Assembly: GCF_001984195.1 (NCBI RefSeq)
Contig: NZ_MTQN01000012.1
Coordinates: forward strand, 558,001 to 622,000
Length of the DNA stretch: 64,000 nt
Source of the DNA: Kribbella sp. ALI-6-A
GTDB taxonomy: Bacteria; Actinomycetota; Actinomycetes; Propionibacteriales; Kribbellaceae
Reading direction: 5' to 3'
Each line of letters begins with the position of its first letter. The stretch's first letter is position 1. Of the stretch, positions 2,502-54,355 are shown piece by piece. The notes below the pieces were generated by a model that worked only from the letters and a program-made list of their open reading frames with translations, searched no databases and was not told the origin of the DNA. The translations under genes and the position numbers were made by a program.

Positions 2502-4322
2502 ATGCGTCGCGTCGTTTTGTCCTGTCTGGTGCTTGTTGCCGCGGTTCTGGTTCCGGCCGGCCGGGCGCAGGCCGCCACCATCACCGTCACAACCACCGCG
2601 GACGTCGTCAACGGCGCCGACGGGTTGACCTCGCTGCGGGAGGCGGTCAGCGCGGCCAACGCGGCCGGCACTCCCACGACGATCACGCTCGCGCCGGCCG
2701 CGTCGTACGGGCTGAGTCTGTGTGGTGACGACGACACCAACGTCGCCGGCGACCTGGACAGTACGTCGGCGCAGCCGCTCACCCTCGACGGCAACGGGGC
2801 GACGATCGACCAGAACTGCGTCGGCGAACGCGTGCTCGACACGGTCGACTCGGATGGCTCGATCGCCTTGCAGGCAGTCGTTCTGACAGGCGGGGACGAC
2901 GTCGACGGGGCCGCGCTGCGCCACAACGGCGACGCCTCGCTCACCGGTGTCACGGTGACCGGCAACAACGCCGGAGCCGGCCGAGTGCTTGCCAGCCCGC
3001 TCGGTGGCGCAGTGCTCGACCTGACCGACTCCACCATTCACGCCAACACCGGTACGGGCGTCGGGCTGTCGCTCGGCACCGTGCACGTCACCGGGACGAC
3101 CATCTCGAACAACACCGGTCGCGGAGTCGGTCTGACCGACGGAGCCCTGACGGTGACCGGGTCGACGATCAGCGGCAACGGCAGTGACGGCGTACGGACG
3201 ACTGGGCAGGGATCTGGGCTGTTCGCTCTCACCGGTACGACGGTGCACAACAACGGTGGCACCGGCGTCATCTGCTCGGCCTGCGGCGACCTCACCATCA
3301 CCGGCTCGACCATCACCCACAACCACCCGGCGGGAACGAGTCAGGGCGGCGGCGTACAGGTGCTGTTCGACCAGGACGAACCTGACGACCAGCCGGTCGT
3401 GACGGTGACCGAGTCGACGATCTCCGGCAACTCCCGGACCGGTGCGGGCGGCGGCCTCGCCACCGGCATCATCGAGAACAGCGGCGGCCCTCCCCCGGCG
3501 CAGATCGTGGTCGTCCGCTCCACCATCAGCGGCAACTCGGCCGCCGGTGTCGCGGACAGCCAGGGCGGCGGCATCGCCGCGCTGACCGGCGAGGTGCGGG
3601 TCGACAACTCGACTGTGACGGGCAACAGCGCCGACGCGGCGGGCGGCGGCATCTACACGCTCGAGCACGACGTACATCTGCGCCACGCAACGGTTTCCGG
3701 CAACACCGCGGGCGGCGTGGGACGCAACGTCGCCACCAATGCCGGGCTGCACACCTTCGGCTCGATCCTGGCCGGCGGTACCGGCTCCAGCGACTGCGGC
3801 ATCGAGCTGGCGACCACTTCGACCGGCTACAACCTGGACGGCGACGGCAGCTGCTCACTGGCCGGTCCGGGCGATCAAAGCAACGTCGGCAGTCCGCAGC
3901 TGGCCGCGCTGGCGAGCAACGGCGGTCCCACCCAGACCATGCTCCCGCTGGCCGGCTCACCGGCGAACGGACTGGTCCCGGCAGCCGCGTGCACTGTACT
4001 TACTACGGACCAGCGCGGAGTGGCTCGGCCACAGGGAACCAACTGCGAAGCGGGAGCTGCCGAAGTGGCCGAAGCGCCACCAGCTGTTGCCTGCACCCAG
4101 ACCGGTACGAACGGAAACGACCTGCTGATCGGTACGCCGGGCAACGACGTCCTGTGCGGCCTGAACGGCGACGACCTGTTGATCGGTGGCGGCGGCAAGG
4201 ACGTCCTGCGCGGCGGCAAGGGCAAGGACCTGCTGATCGGCGGGACCGGCCAGGACGTGCTCGACGGCGGGCCGGGAAAGGACCTCTGCCTCGGGATCGG
4301 AGACACCCGAATCTCCTGCTAG
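2502..4322 (+). CDS. Secreted CSLREA-type beta-helix protein with C-terminal RTX-like repeats
   Basis: Exported protein of about 606 residues. A signal peptide ends near AGRAQA. Next comes a CSLREA-type segment (DGLTSLREAVSAAN), then many short repeats with STISGN, TVTGN and TISNN patterns, typical of a right-handed parallel beta-helix. The final 65 residues carry glycine/aspartate nonapeptide-like repeats (GTPGNDVL, NGDDLLIGG, GKDVLRGG, GKDLLIGG), as in calcium-binding RTX domains. The ATG at 2502 has GGGGAG six bases upstream; a GTG at 2496 would add two residues. A wall or extracellular adhesin or polysaccharide-binding role is plausible but unproven. No dedicated type I exporter is adjacent, so export is probably by Sec. 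Confidence 0.85.
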   Translation: MRRVVLSCLVLVAAVLVPAGRAQAATITVTTTADVVNGADGLTSLREAVSAANAAGTPTTITLAPAASYGLSLCGDDDTNVAGDLDSTSAQPLTLDGNGATIDQNCVGERVLDTVDSDGSIALQAVVLTGGDDVDGAALRHNGDASLTGVTVTGNNAGAGRVLASPLGGAVLDLTDSTIHANTGTGVGLSLGTVHVTGTTISNNTGRGVGLTDGALTVTGSTISGNGSDGVRTTGQGSGLFALTGTTVHNNGGTGVICSACGDLTITGSTITHNHPAGTSQGGGVQVLFDQDEPDDQPVVTVTESTISGNSRTGAGGGLATGIIENSGGPPPAQIVVVRSTISGNSAAGVADSQGGGIAALTGEVRVDNSTVTGNSADAAGGGIYTLEHDVHLRHATVSGNTAGGVGRNVATNAGLHTFGSILAGGTGSSDCGIELATTSTGYNLDGDGSCSLAGPGDQSNVGSPQLAALASNGGPTQTMLPLAGSPANGLVPAAACTVLTTDQRGVARPQGTNCEAGAAEVAEAPPAVACTQTGTNGNDLLIGTPGNDVLCGLNGDDLLIGGGGKDVLRGGKGKDLLIGGTGQDVLDGGPGKDLCLGIGDTRISC

Positions 4323-4340
4323 AGCGATAGATTCGGGCCC

Positions 4341-5309
4341 ATGCTGACCCTTGACGACGTACTGGCCGCGGCGGACCGGATCGAAGGGGCGGCGCACCGG
4401 ACGCCGGTGCTGACATCGCGCACGCTGAACGAGCGGGTCGGCGCCGAGGTGTTCCTCAAGGCGGAGAACTTCCAGCGGATCGGGGCGTTCAAGTTCCGCG
4501 GCGCCTGCAACGCGGTCAGCCGGTTGACCGCGGCCGAACGCGCACGCGGCGTCGCGGCGTACTCGTCCGGGAACCACGCCCAGGCCGTCGCGCTCGCGGC
4601 CGCGCTGGCCGGGACGCGCGCGGTGATCCTGATGCCGGCCGACGCGCCGCCGACGAAGGTCGCGGCCACCGAGGGGTACGGCGCGGAGGTGGTCCGCTAC
4701 GACCGCTACACCGAGGACCGGGCGGCGCTGGCGGCGAAGCTGTCGCAGGATCGCGGGCTGACGCTGATTCCGCCGTACGACCACTACGACGTGATGGCCG
4801 GGCAGGGCACGGTGGCGCTCGAGTTGATCCGGGAGGTCGGCCCGCTCGGCGCGCTGCTCGTCCCGGTCGGGGGTGGCGGGCTGATGGCCGGCTGTGCGAC
4901 CGCCGCGACCGCGTTGTCGCCCGGCATCCGGATGATCGGCGTCGAGCCGGCCGCGGGCGACGACCACGCCCGCTCGCTGGCCGCCGGGCACCGGGTCGAG
5001 ATCGAGGTGCCGCGCACGATCGCCGACGGGCAAGCGATCTCGTCGCCGGGCGAGCTGACCTTCGCGGTGAACCAGCGGCTGGTCGAGGCGTTCTCGCTGG
5101 TGTCCGACGACGAGATCCGGGCGGCGATGGCGTTCGCCTTCGAGCGACTGAAGATCGTGCTCGAGCCGAGCGGTGCGAGCGCCCTGGCGGCACTGCTGGC
5201 GGGCCGCGTCGAGGACCTCCCGGACCGCGTCGGTGTCGTGCTGTCCGGCGGCAACGTGGGCCTGCAGAGGTTCCAGGAACTGCTCGGCGAAGGGCAGCCT
5301 GAGCACTGA
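4341..5309 (+). CDS. PLP-dependent threonine/serine dehydratase-like enzyme
   Basis: Fold-type II PLP enzyme of 322 residues, a single catalytic domain without the regulatory ACT domain of biosynthetic IlvA. The PLP lysine is K51 in the motif FKFRGACNA. SSGNHAQA (about 75-82) and the phosphate-binding glycine loop VGGGGLMAG (about 173-181) follow, and SGGNVG is near the end. The size and motifs fit catabolic threonine/serine ammonia-lyase, serine racemase or threo-3-hydroxyaspartate dehydratase, which cannot be separated by eye. It begins 18 bp after the beta-helix gene, without functional connection. The 3' end is followed by CRP-type boxes that belong to the next gene or to this gene's terminator region. 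Confidence 0.88.
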   Translation: MLTLDDVLAAADRIEGAAHRTPVLTSRTLNERVGAEVFLKAENFQRIGAFKFRGACNAVSRLTAAERARGVAAYSSGNHAQAVALAAALAGTRAVILMPADAPPTKVAATEGYGAEVVRYDRYTEDRAALAAKLSQDRGLTLIPPYDHYDVMAGQGTVALELIREVGPLGALLVPVGGGGLMAGCATAATALSPGIRMIGVEPAAGDDHARSLAAGHRVEIEVPRTIADGQAISSPGELTFAVNQRLVEAFSLVSDDEIRAAMAFAFERLKIVLEPSGASALAALLAGRVEDLPDRVGVVLSGGNVGLQRFQELLGEGQPEH

Positions 5310-5513: not shown

Positions 5514-5555
5514 CGTCGGCGGTTCGACAAATACTTCGAACTGCATGTGTGTCAA

Positions 5556-5724
5556 CGCCGAGCCCTGCCAGGCACACATGTTCCCCTCGAACACCATGGC
5601 AGGGGTGGGGGACCCAGGATGTTGGGTCCCGGCTGTGAGTGGCCGGGTCCCTGGGGTGAAGTCCGCGGGAGCGGACCGGGCGATCGACTTCCAGCCCGAA
5701 CCCGACAGCTAACTCCGCAGGCGT
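5556..5724 (+). ncRNA. c-di-AMP riboswitch (ydaO-yuaA class)
   Basis: The leader carries the hallmark conserved blocks of the ydaO/yuaA class in order: CGCCGAGCCCTGCCAGG near 5557, GGGGGACCCAGGA with its partner TGGGTCC near 5608-5630, GGGGTGAAGTC near 5653, CAGCCCGAACCCGACAGCT near 5692, and AACTCCGCAGGCG at the 3' end. The class binds cyclic di-AMP and is known to precede resuscitation-factor and NlpC/P60 wall hydrolases in actinobacteria. The ribosome site GGGAG (5726-5730) follows immediately, so control of translation start or of transcript extension are both possible. In most members the ligand turns expression off. Confidence 0.92.
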
Positions 5725-5736
5725 CGGGAGACAACC

Positions 5737-6582
5737 ATGCCCGTCACTGTCCGACGGACAGCGCTTCTGCGCGCCGTCACCACGAGCGAATCCAGTACCC
5801 GGCCGACCGGACGGACGCTGGCCAAGCACCGCAAGACCAGCAAGTCCCCGGCCCCGCGGGCCGCGGCCGCCGTCCTCACGGTCGGCCTGGCCGTCTCCGG
5901 TGGAGCGGCGCTCACCGTCGTGGCCCCCGCCGACACCGCCCACGCGGGAACCTCGAAGACCACCTCGGCCGCCTGGGCCCGGGGCAACAAGCCGATCAGC
6001 ACCAAGCCGCTGCTGCGCTACGCCGACGCCGGCTCGGCCGTCCGCTACGTGCAGCGCTCGCTCGACGTCCCGGCCGGTGGCTGGTACGGCTCGGCGACCC
6101 GCACCGCGGTGGCGAACTTCCAGCGCCGGGTGGGCCTGCCCCGCACCGGCACCATGACCGTGAACACCTGGCGCTCGCTGTTCTACGCCGCCAACCACGG
6201 TCTGCTGCACCGTGGCTCCGGCAAGGCGACGACCTTCCAGGCCAAGGTGCTGCGTGAGGCCGCGAAGCTCAAGGGCACGCCGTACCGGTACGGCGGCACC
6301 ACCCCCAAGGGCTTCGACTGCTCCGGCTACACCGGCTACGTCTACAAGAAGGCCGGCAAGAAGCTGCCCCGCACTTCGCGCCAGCAGTACAGCGCCACCA
6401 AGCACCTGAGCCGCAAGGCCGCCAAGCCGGGCGACCTGGTGTTCTTCAAGAGCGGTGGCGGCGGCGTCTACCACGTCGGCATCTACGCCGGCAGCAACAT
6501 GCTGTGGCACGCCTCGAAGCCGGGCCGCCCGGTCGCGAAGGCGAAGATCTGGAGCTCGAACGTGGCCTTCGGCCGCGCCTGA
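5737..6582 (+). CDS. Secreted NlpC/P60 peptidoglycan endopeptidase with peptidoglycan-binding domain
   Basis: Exported cell-wall hydrolase of 281 residues. A long basic N-terminus leads into a hydrophobic stretch and a cleavage site near PADTAHA (about residue 70). A PG_binding_1 domain (about 88-150, RYADAGSAVRYVQRSLDV and FQRRVGLPRTG) precedes an NlpC/P60 domain (about 165-281). The catalytic cysteine is C195 in FDCSGYTGYVY, and the histidines are H246 (VYHVGIYAG) and H258. It should cut stem-peptide bonds in peptidoglycan. The start has GGGAG six bases upstream, directly after the c-di-AMP riboswitch. Expression is therefore likely tied to c-di-AMP level and possibly to CRP through the two upstream boxes. 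Confidence 0.95.
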   Translation: MPVTVRRTALLRAVTTSESSTRPTGRTLAKHRKTSKSPAPRAAAAVLTVGLAVSGGAALTVVAPADTAHAGTSKTTSAAWARGNKPISTKPLLRYADAGSAVRYVQRSLDVPAGGWYGSATRTAVANFQRRVGLPRTGTMTVNTWRSLFYAANHGLLHRGSGKATTFQAKVLREAAKLKGTPYRYGGTTPKGFDCSGYTGYVYKKAGKKLPRTSRQQYSATKHLSRKAAKPGDLVFFKSGGGGVYHVGIYAGSNMLWHASKPGRPVAKAKIWSSNVAFGRA

Positions 6583-27440: not shown

Positions 27441-28988
27441 ATGTCACCGGCGATGAGCCTGACCGCGATCGGTCTGGTGATCGCGGCAACGATCGGCATC
27501 GGGTTGTTCGGGCTGCGGATCTCCCGCACCACCAGCGATTTCTACGTCGCCAGCCGCGCCGTCACCCCACGCTGGAACGCCTCCGCGATCAGCGGCGAGT
27601 ACTTGTCGGCGGCATCTTTCCTCGGCGTCGCCGGACTGGTCCTGGTGAACGGCGCCGACATGCTGTGGTTCTCGGTCGGCTACACCGTCGGCTACCTGAT
27701 GCTGCTGGTCCTGATCGCCGCCCCGCTGCGCCGCTCCGGCGCCTACACGTTGCCCGACTTCGCCGAGACCCGCTTCGAGTCGGCCGTCGTCCGGCGGATC
27801 TGCTCGTTCCTGGTGGCCGGGATCGGCACGCTCTACCTGCTCCCCCAGTTGCGCGGCGCCGGGCTGACCGTGCAGACCGTGACCGGCGCACCGCCCGCGG
27901 TCGGGGCCGCGCTGGTCGCGATCATCGTGGTGATCAACGTCGCCGCCGGCGGGATGCGCTCGATCACCTTCGTCCAGGCCTTCCAGTACTGGCTGAAACT
28001 GTTCGCCCTGGCCGCGCCGGTTTTTGTCATCCTGATCGCCTGGCGCTCGATGGACCACCCGGTCGGCGTACTGGATTCGCTGCAGGGCGCAGGCTCGGAG
28101 TGGGCCGAGCCGCTGTCCACCGCCGACGGCCGCGACCATCCCTTGTACGCGACGTACTCGTTACTGCTGGCCCTTTGTTTCGGGACGATGGGCCTGCCGC
28201 ACGTGCTGGTCCGCTTCTACACCAATCCCGACGGCCGCGCCGCCCGCCGGACGACGGTCGTGGTGCTCGCGCTGCTCGGCGTCTTCTACCTCTTCCCGCC
28301 CGTGTACGCCGTACTGGGGCGGGCGTTCGCCCCGGATCTGGTCGCCACGGCCGCCGACACCGTCGTACTGGAACTGCCCGGACGGATCTTCCCCGGCACC
28401 GTCGGGGATCTGCTCGGCGCGCTCGTCGCGGCGGGAGCGTTCGCCGCGTTCTTGTCCACGTCGTCGGGGTTGACCGTCGCGATCGCCGGCGTGATCGATC
28501 AGGACCTGCTGCGCAATCGCCTGCACCGGTTGACCGGAGGCGACTACCTGGCCGTCAACAGCTTCCGGATCGCGGCCGTGCTGGCCATGGCCGTTCCCTA
28601 CGTCGCCTGGAACTTCACCGGCGCGCTGAGTTTGGCCGACACAGTCGGGCTCGCCTTCGCGGTCGCGGCTTCGACGTTCTGTCCGCTGCTCGTGCTGGGT
28701 ATCTGGTGGCGCCGCATGTCGACGGTCGGCGCCGCCGCCGGCCTGCTCGTCGGCGGAGTCGCCGCGATCTTCGCCGTCCTGGTCAACGTCGTCGGCCCAC
28801 CCCTGGACGGCTGGCTCGGCGCCCTCGTCGCCCAGCCCGCCGCGTGGACGATGCCGCTGGCTTTCCTCACCGTCATCGTGGTTTCCCGGCTCACGCCGAC
28901 CCGGATCCCGGCCGGCACCGCCCGCAGCATGGTCCGCCTGCACACCCCTGAAGCGGTCGACGTCGACCGGGGCTTCACGCGCGGGTGA
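27441..28988 (+). CDS. Sodium/solute symporter, acetate-permease type (copy 1)
   Basis: Solute:sodium symporter of 515 residues with about 13 helices. SGEYLSAASFLGVAGLVLVN and LRRSGAYTLPDFAETRFES are typical of ActP/MctC-type monocarboxylate carriers, as is GTMGLPHVLVRFYTNPDGRA. It lies in a four-gene unit with a LytS kinase, a LytTR regulator and a small partner protein, so it is probably induced by its own substrate through that system. Substrate candidates are acetate, pyruvate or propionate; none is proven. It is paralogous to the symporter at 29679. Confidence 0.92.
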   Translation: MSPAMSLTAIGLVIAATIGIGLFGLRISRTTSDFYVASRAVTPRWNASAISGEYLSAASFLGVAGLVLVNGADMLWFSVGYTVGYLMLLVLIAAPLRRSGAYTLPDFAETRFESAVVRRICSFLVAGIGTLYLLPQLRGAGLTVQTVTGAPPAVGAALVAIIVVINVAAGGMRSITFVQAFQYWLKLFALAAPVFVILIAWRSMDHPVGVLDSLQGAGSEWAEPLSTADGRDHPLYATYSLLLALCFGTMGLPHVLVRFYTNPDGRAARRTTVVVLALLGVFYLFPPVYAVLGRAFAPDLVATAADTVVLELPGRIFPGTVGDLLGALVAAGAFAAFLSTSSGLTVAIAGVIDQDLLRNRLHRLTGGDYLAVNSFRIAAVLAMAVPYVAWNFTGALSLADTVGLAFAVAASTFCPLLVLGIWWRRMSTVGAAAGLLVGGVAAIFAVLVNVVGPPLDGWLGALVAQPAAWTMPLAFLTVIVVSRLTPTRIPAGTARSMVRLHTPEAVDVDRGFTRG

Positions 28989-28997
28989 ACCTGCAGC

Positions 28998-29075
28998 ACC
29001 GATCAACCTCCTGATACGCGGTCGCCGCCGGGCCGCTCCCGCGTGGGCGTGGGCCGGAGCGCTCGGTTGATCGGT
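28998..29075. repeat. Interspersed palindromic repeat, copy A
   Basis: ACCGATCAACC (28998-29008) is the exact reverse complement of GGTTGATCGGT (29065-29075), with a 56-bp GC-rich centre. The right arm continues as GGTTGATCGGTGGTGGGCG up to 29090. The same 20-bp core recurs in another intergenic gap at 54321-54342, so this is a dispersed element rather than a local terminator. Confidence 0.6.
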
Positions 29076-29080
29076 GGTGG

Positions 29081-29170
29081 GCGTCGGCCGTTCGTCAGTG
29101 CCTGCCGTCGGTCCGGCCGCCCAGTCCGCTGCAGCGGCTGGTTCGCCGACGGTAGCGTCGGCCGTTCGTC
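29081..29170. repeat. 16-bp direct repeat in the symporter upstream region
   Basis: GCGTCGGCCGTTCGTC occurs at 29081-29096 and again at 29155-29170, exactly 74 bp apart. It adjoins the palindromic repeat and lies upstream of the second DUF485-symporter operon. The rest of the 352-bp gap (28989-29340) shows no gene. Confidence 0.6.
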
Positions 29171-29340
29171 GTGCGGATGCGACCGCTCGTCGCACCTCGG
29201 CTTTCCGCCGGTCGAGGGGTGTGGGCCGCTGAGCGCTCGACGCCGGTCGGTGCTGTTTGGGCGGGGTGAGCTGGACCACAGTACGGAGCAGCAACCCGCG
29301 CCGGACTCCGCCCGGCCTGATCACGTCTGGAGGTCCCGCG

Positions 29341-43705: not shown

Positions 43706-43743
43706 GGCGACCGTTCCTCCAACACCTCGTGGACGGGACGCGT

Positions 43744-43905
43744 CGTGGCCGGTCTCCTGGCTGACGGGACGACCGCATCCGTCGAGCTGACCTTCCCAGT
43801 CCGGCAGGGACCAGTGGTCTCACAGCACGTGAACGCTCGTCGGACAATCCCGATCACAGTGGCGAGGGCCGCGCCGGTTCCACACCGGCTTCCCGAACAC
43901 CACGA
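43744..43905 (-). ncRNA. Cobalamin riboswitch
   Basis: On the minus strand the conserved blocks occur in order: GGGAAGCCGGTGTGGAACCG, GCGCGGCCCTCGCCACTGTG (the B12 box region with GCCACTG), GACCACTGG, CTGGGAAGG, and finally GTCAGCCAGGAGACCGGCC. It ends 38 bp before the binding-protein ATG. The class usually turns expression off at high adenosyl- or hydroxocobalamin. Confidence 0.93.
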
Positions 43906-43968
43906 CGCCCACACGGTAGCTCACCTTGCGACGCGGTCGCAGCACCTGGTCCGGCCGCCAGGACGCCG

Positions 43969-54200: not shown

Positions 54201-54250
54201 GCCCACGCGGCCAGGGTATGGCATGACCGGTGATCGGTTTGGGCGGCGGC

Positions 54251-54344
54251 GCCGACGTCCACCACCGACCAACCTCTGCCTGCGGTCGACGCCCGAGCGT
54301 GGAGCTGCCGCCGGCGGGGAGGTTGATCGGTGGTGGGCGTCGCC
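54251..54344. repeat. Interspersed palindromic repeat, copy B
   Basis: The arm at 54251-54276 and the arm at 54319-54344 are reverse complements at 23 of 26 positions, around a 42-bp centre. The right arm shares GGTTGATCGGTGGTGGGCGT with copy A (29065-29084). It is in the gap between the PSP1 gene start and the decarboxylase 3' end. Confidence 0.65.
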
Positions 54345-54355
54345 CGCGACCGGGG

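Follow-up and report, generated by a model that had tools for sequence, protein, structure and literature searches.

A dispersed family of paired-arm elements in Kribbella and an AbiEi-DUF559 nuclease as its likely partner

The window, a stretch of 64,000 nucleotides from the genome of Kribbella sp. ALI-6-A (8.1 Mb on 12 contigs), contains the 20-bp string GGTTGATCGGTGGTGGGCGT at positions 29065-29084 and 54321-54340. In both cases the string belongs to the right arm of an inverted repeat, as the earlier note on this DNA had claimed; the element boundaries, listed below, differ slightly from the coordinates given there. Copy A lies in the gap behind an open reading frame (27441-28988) that presumably encodes an ActP/MctC-like symporter, and the stop codon of this frame falls within the left arm of the element.

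28984..29089, no strand assigned: copy A, whole element (106 bp)
28984..29008, minus strand: copy A, left arm (25 bp; arm weight matrix)
29038..29045, plus strand: copy A, internal box at its canonical place, 29 bp from the left and 19 bp from the right arm (by eye)
29065..29089, plus strand: copy A, right arm (25 bp; includes the 20-bp string)
54250..54345, no strand assigned: copy B, whole element (96 bp; in the short class, down one step of the ladder)
54250..54274, minus strand: copy B, left arm (arm weight matrix)
54294..54301, plus strand: copy B, internal box CGAGCGTG, 19 bp from either arm
54321..54345, plus strand: copy B, right arm (arm weight matrix)

The box of copy A is degenerate and, by eye, retains only a GCGTG core. 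Immediately past this element, a direct repeat (GTCGGCCGTTCGTC) is present in two copies about 74 bp apart (window 29084-29171).

Both copies are members of a family of at least 76 paired-arm elements of about 106 bp. The reading of the repeat as a dispersed, REP/MITE-like intergenic family, put forward in the earlier note, is borne out by genome-wide searches with the core and with a covariance model. The 20-bp string occurs at 22 places with up to two mismatches (reversed-pattern control, 0), a degenerate core at 138 places with up to three mismatches (control, 7), and the covariance model has at least 148 matches (both strands counted; 150 candidates scored). In an arm survey of 1.26 Mb, which comprised the window and 60 stretches of 20 kb, most of them picked for model matches, a single-arm weight matrix detected 158 arms with a score of at least 12 but only one in the reversed sequence; these arms form 76 inverted pairs and leave six unpaired. 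Our own gene calls place 75 of the 76 elements outside genes and one inside. Rather than two isolated copies with unconserved arms, a possibility that had also been raised, the genome thus holds at least 76 copies with conserved arms.

The arms are about 25 bp long (22-25 bp) with conserved CGGAC/GTCCG tips, usually lie 56 bp apart, and enclose an interior that is random save for an 8-bp box. The start-to-start spacing of the arms in the 76 pairs is 81 bp (51 pairs), 80 (14), 82 (2), or 79 (1), and more rarely 70 (3), 71 (2), 91 (2), or 114 (1), which forms a ladder with a step of about one DNA turn. Among the 197 distinct elements in all DNA read, each of the 18 non-main spacings in the range of 60-100 falls at 69-71 or 91 (p=6e-15, which is indicative only because the windows were set after the data had been seen and orthologous copies are counted in); three further spacings are 112, 114, and 188. 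The box (YRAGCGTG) occupies a fixed place, with a log-likelihood of 910 for 98 interiors of 56 nt versus a shuffled maximum of 241, and in 101 of the 109 81-spaced elements whose box is clear (at least 7 of 8 letters) its distances to the arms are 19 and 29 bp. A scan of 84,980 genomes for one exact arm variant, with the gap left free between 40 and 70, returned 73 stretches, of which 70 belong to Kribbella, two to Streptomyces sp. SID13031 (counted as the same genus here), and one, of length 91, to a Chloroflexi MAG, which is set aside as a probable chance match. The lengths of the remaining 72 cluster at 69-70 (6), 79-81 (65), and 90 (1), with 64-94 permitted.

Coupling between the left and right arms is strongest, with a mutual information of 0.63, 0.35, and 0.35, at positions 7, 8, and 21, which largely account for an earlier count over 23 elements that was readable as covariation; at positions 8 and 21, the coupling across positions is as strong as along them (0.36 and 0.30). 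Weaker excess matching (z 3-4) is present at positions 15, 17, and 18 in the set from strain ALI-6-A and at positions 0, 5, and 20 in another set that had been pre-selected for exact inner arms. Complementarity outside the arms is at shuffle level on both sides (126 elements), and at many of the variable arm positions, 30% or more of the elements carry a mismatch. Because only three positions show strong coupling, with weak coupling at a few more, and because complementarity ends with the arms, the arms are read as recognition classes of double-stranded DNA sites and not as a base-paired hairpin. An RNA hairpin that serves as terminator or 3'-end stabiliser could explain the weak couplings, and would agree with the low folding energies (computed with no shuffle control) and with the placement of the elements at gene ends. 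Such a role is nevertheless very improbable, given not only the mismatches and the abrupt end of complementarity but also a box orientation that is independent of gene orientation (15 of 25 tandem cases in sense) and a 10-bp ladder, which is a signature of double-stranded DNA. A known RNA family was also considered and rejected; at gathering scores, the window holds only a cobalamin riboswitch (43730-43919, minus strand; Rfam RF00174, 83 bits) and a c-di-AMP riboswitch (5546-5737, plus strand; RF00379, 65.7 bits), both located elsewhere.

A RAYT enzyme, suggested previously as the partner of the elements, found no support: the PF01797 profile (Y1_Tnp, RAYT) has no match in the genome of strain ALI-6-A, whereas it detects proteins in 5 of 14 control genomes. 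In another Kribbella genome (G034), a single gene is flanked by two elements, and a nuclease gene occupies the corresponding position in strain ALI-6-A.

C7:1611202-1612074: nuclease gene, between the elements at C7:1611138 and C7:1612125

This gene, which by eye has hutI-like and sialidase-like neighbours, is the only DUF559 match of the genome at E<=0.001; a protein search added two weaker homologues, one at 32% identity. The DUF559 score of its product is 26.3 bits (cut-off 20.6), and four such proteins, with 26.3-30.9 bits, are all above the cut-off, whereas the Vsr-type MTES_1575 model remains below its own (30.2 versus 38.2 bits). The N-terminal 165 residues are matched by AbiEi models, the best of which reach E values of 1.3e-9, 4.2e-10, and 3.7e-12 in three proteins; Pfam AbiEi_4 is below the cut-off in all four proteins tested. 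A PDB sequence search with the nuclease had no match at E<=1, and a single-sequence structure prediction was uninformative (mean pLDDT 44) and was not used. Across the class, 261 of 394 sampled genomes encode relatives of the nuclease. A plasmid search yielded one weak match and a phage search one match, a relative with 47.7% identity at 3944-4720 of MT837367.1, a short record from human faeces that is titled "Bacteriophage sp." and lacks annotation. The MTES_1575 domain is named in PMC3710099, and a DUF559 protein of Caulobacter is treated as a Vsr-like repair enzyme in the part of PMC12907096 drawn on here.

A protein search of 38 Kribbella genomes separated a top tier of homologues (clade E; 67-100% identity) from a next tier (clade F; 53-61% identity). 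The E gene is present in 18 of the 38 genomes (split into two pieces in G002). In 17 of the 18 E loci, at least one arm lies on each side at near-fixed offsets, and 11 loci have the full set of four; the left arm of the downstream element extends over the 3' end of the gene. At L338, an E arm is found on one side only, with a flank likeness of 48 versus a shuffled maximum of 30. The 12 F loci inspected showed no E arms beyond one weak score; in 10 of them, both flanks carry an element with the arm ATTGTGATGGCCTGGSGRTCCG, and of the two remaining loci, L349 has a third arm and the flanks of L354 share yet another (44 versus a shuffled maximum of 33). Tip to tip, F elements measure 90-91 bp in 40 of 43 cases (one 112, two shorter), so that they fall short of the main E class by a single step of the ladder, and a comparable box lies close to their centre.

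Both arm types are more abundant in genomes that have the matching gene. Genomes with an F gene have a median of 68.5 F arms (40-93, n=14) versus 6 (0-51, n=24) in those without (p=6e-7), and genomes with an E gene have a median of 66.5 matches to the E model, which was built from strain ALI-6-A (4 to at least 100, n=18), versus 25 (0 to at least 100, n=20) in those without (p=5e-4; 9e-4 when strain ALI-6-A is left out), in tests that treat genomes as independent of kinship. The 14 F carriers were set by protein tier. Ten of them were seen to have F arms at the gene, as does G014 judging by arm positions; G005 and G011 are included by tier alone, and the inspected gene of G022 (L354) has another arm. 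The F comparison gives p=9.5e-5 with only the 10 genomes that have F arms seen at the gene, and p=1.4e-4 if the doubtful G003, G023, G026, and G028 (10, 4, 6, and 2 F arms) are counted as carriers. Individual genomes depart from the trend: G014 and G058 have at least 100 and 51 E matches without an E gene, G009 has 51 F arms without an F gene, and G007 has an E gene yet only four E matches. The proteins of the two clades diverge most at residues 51-170, between the start of the winged helix and the nuclease domain (identity ratio 0.65-0.67 versus 0.84-0.90 elsewhere), which makes this stretch a candidate specificity region.

E and F genes mostly share a common chromosomal place. Among the upstream flanks, 15 of 17 E and 11 of 11 F loci join one group, as do 14 of 17 E and 11 of 11 F loci among the downstream flanks, with 107 and 154 direct E-F links, respectively. 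The E genes of G026 and G023, located at loci unlike the common one, would suit a homing-type selfish nuclease that cuts the element sites and spreads its gene by recombinational repair, the short elements representing targets or relics. The invariance of Glu183, Asp214, Glu225, and His232 in 32 nuclease proteins, which we take to be putative catalytic residues, is in line with such an activity. Homing is nevertheless quite unlikely, considering that most genes occupy the one common locus, and by itself it leaves unexplained some 76 copies that are nearly all without the gene.

Relative to 432 gaps of at least 106 bp defined by the same gene calls, elements with both neighbours called are enriched in convergent gaps (26 of 73 versus 52 of 432) and depleted in divergent gaps (10 of 73 versus 158 of 432). 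Several elements hold a stop codon within the outer end of an arm. In 20 orthologous pairs from Kribbella (some sharing loci), identity is 88-90% in the arms, 84% in the flanks, and 73% in the interiors, and the spacing agrees within 1 bp in 18 pairs and differs by 11 bp in two, both involving L128. At the place of copy A, arms are present by score in 6 of 29 other-species loci, and by eye also in L215; at the place of copy B, none of the 29 other-species loci inspected has arms (its flank was matched in 37 other genomes). Because arms occur in other species at the first place and in none at the second, some copies are old and have been kept, whereas others are confined to few species. An interior with a partner above the shuffled maximum was found in 30 of the 76 elements; the other 46 have none, and many copies are therefore old. 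Some of the related interiors are local duplicates, whereas others lie on different contigs (e.g., C12:129382 and C4:35547). In L207 (G026), an unrelated long palindrome (CACCTGATCATTCGCCCCCTTTTCACCC and its complement) replaces copy A at the same gene end.

The orientation bias of the gaps, the stronger conservation of the arms than of the interiors, and the counterparts of copy A at the same place in other species could also reflect a regulon, with the AbiEi-DUF559 protein binding DNA as a regulator or roadblock; its paired sites at gene ends would then insulate or terminate transcription, and copies would arise by local duplication and be kept by selection. We consider this unlikely. Copy numbers range from 0 to at least 100 between Kribbella species, the place of copy B is devoid of arms in the 29 other-species loci inspected, and related interiors are found on different contigs; moreover, the arm type varies with the nuclease allele, and a regulator would not need an element downstream of its own gene.

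The elements resemble MITEs in that they are short, non-coding, dispersed, and bounded by terminal inverted arms. An origin as ordinary MITEs of a DDE insertion sequence is nevertheless extremely improbable, because the two clearest pairs of filled and empty sites (L224 versus L225 and L257 versus L071; flank identity 88-97%) show no target-site duplication, no DDE transposase partner was found in the 1.26 Mb, and the nuclease is the only arm-flanked gene unit met. In L224 versus L225, about 20 bp of the target, including the stop codon, has been replaced. Within the 1.26 Mb of the genome of strain ALI-6-A, arms are paired only at distances of up to 188 bp. An autonomous transposon between two arms on contig C3 (17784 and 19099) was considered and rejected; by eye, the enclosed gene is hydroxyisobutyrate-dehydrogenase-like.

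The reading preferred here, with a probability of roughly 0.6, is that the cognate protein of the elements is the AbiEi-DUF559 fusion (Vsr-like PD-(D/E)XK) and that the nuclease drives their copying or moving in a manner similar to REPINs and RAYTs but with an unrelated enzyme. Its basis is the architecture with its ladder, the extragenic bias towards gene ends, the flanking of the gene by arms, and the match between arm type and clade. Against it stand the many old copies, the genomes in which elements persist without the gene (G014, G058, G009), the scarcity of E matches in G007 despite its E gene, the one-sided arm of L338, the lack of shared arms at L315, the two weaker homologues of the nuclease in strain ALI-6-A, and the confinement of arms to the gene in the stretch of G361 described below. 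Arms of 22-25 bp, the helical ladder, and the AbiEi-like region form a consistent picture, in which the arms most likely serve as binding sites of the protein. The AbiEi-like region would bind each arm as double-stranded DNA, and both arms, perhaps together with a factor at the box, would lie on the same face of the DNA to be brought together. The nuclease would then cut at or near the conserved CGGAC/GTCCG tips and, acting in trans, could let elements multiply or change place, which is the role ascribed to RAYT enzymes in the case of REPINs. In addition, the upstream element may serve as the operator of the nuclease gene.

This arrangement shares with the REPIN-RAYT system the short, extragenic inverted doublets in many copies (PMC3116915, Bertels and Rainey 2011), a vertically inherited cognate enzyme gene tied to its own repeat type (PMC8049555), and the flanking of the enzyme gene by its repeat (here 17 of 18 E loci, with a different enzyme); as described in the parts of PMC8049555 and PMC3116915 used here, RAYTs are single-copy, vertically inherited, and still copying REPINs. 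It differs in that no Y1/HUH enzyme was found, the cognate enzyme being an AbiEi-DUF559 fusion, and in that the arms, with their helical ladder and internal box, look like double-stranded DNA sites rather than single-stranded hairpins. Moreover, the arm consensus does not contain the GTAG that tags REPIN-RAYT repeats in the descriptions used here. In the AbiE type IV toxin-antitoxin system, according to the parts of PMC7319586 considered, AbiEi bends the DNA and occupies its two 23-bp inverted repeats in a positively cooperative manner; a relative binds repeats 10 bp further apart and shows no positive cooperativity. AbiE systems have an adjacent AbiEii (DUF1814) toxin gene; the neighbours of the Kribbella nuclease gene were read by eye only, as hutI-like and sialidase-like. 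The Kribbella system has in common with these operators the AbiEi-type region, the inverted repeats upstream of the gene, and the 10-bp difference in spacing within a pair between two systems; it is unlike AbiE in the fusion to a nuclease domain, in repeats that flank the gene and are scattered across the genome, and in a usual distance of 56 bp between arms instead of the 3 or 13 bp given for AbiE in that source. With Vsr, DUF559, and MTES_1575 nucleases it shares the C-terminal domain family.

Flanking and dispersed repeats set the Kribbella nuclease apart from these relatives: the portions of the open-access literature covered here contained no description of repeats for DUF559 or MTES_1575 proteins, and searches of that literature gave nothing on Vsr with flanking inverted repeats and no description under Kribbella palindromes or Actinobacteria intergenic palindromes. 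For AbiEi with repeats, excerpts of the matches listed likewise held no description. The different arms that accompany the diverged version of the gene point to an undescribed kind of partnership between repeat and enzyme. If correct, this reading would provide a role and a partner DNA for AbiEi-DUF559 fusions, for which no described role was found, and would add a second, independent example of an enzyme that is maintained vertically alongside a population of short repeats. Since a single locus in the genus harbours two alleles that differ in their arms, experiments can address recognition, cutting, and spread directly.

Paired arms are not restricted to clades E and F. Among the further DUF559 loci of Kribbella, 7 of 8 scored share paired arms across their flanks (that of L324 is F-like), and the flanks of L315 share none; L320 is the same locus as L350, and L310, L313, and L322 are outside the flank scoring. 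In other genera (38-47% identity), 13 of 26 loci outscore all 50 mismatched flank pairs, where about 0.5 would be expected, in a set that consists of best matches and is no random sample (26 scored of 29, with three short ones left out); L376 exceeds the mismatched pairs by one point only. Genome-wide dispersal was observed for Kribbella alone, because a 400-kb portion of G361 (4.0 Mb) showed no conspicuous arms beyond the four at the gene. That AbiEi-DUF559 genes with their own flanking paired elements occur throughout Actinomycetes, with protein and arms diverging together, and gave rise in Kribbella to genome-wide populations whose arm type follows the allele, as a double-stranded-DNA system of PD-(D/E)XK type unrelated to RAYT, has in our estimate slightly better than even odds.

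Elements also occur in clusters. In strain ALI-6-A, a long gap without called genes (C7:919927-921593) contains three elements and a half-decayed one, and another (C6:948019-948849) contains four. In other Kribbella genomes, F-type elements directly adjoin E elements at L147, L159, L179, and other loci. An array in G026 (L286, 7592-9381) comprises seven right arms, of which six have a left arm that scores; the intervals are about 255 bp in most cases, and the units also bear an F-like inverted pair (CCAGCCCATCAAT / GATTGATGGCC).
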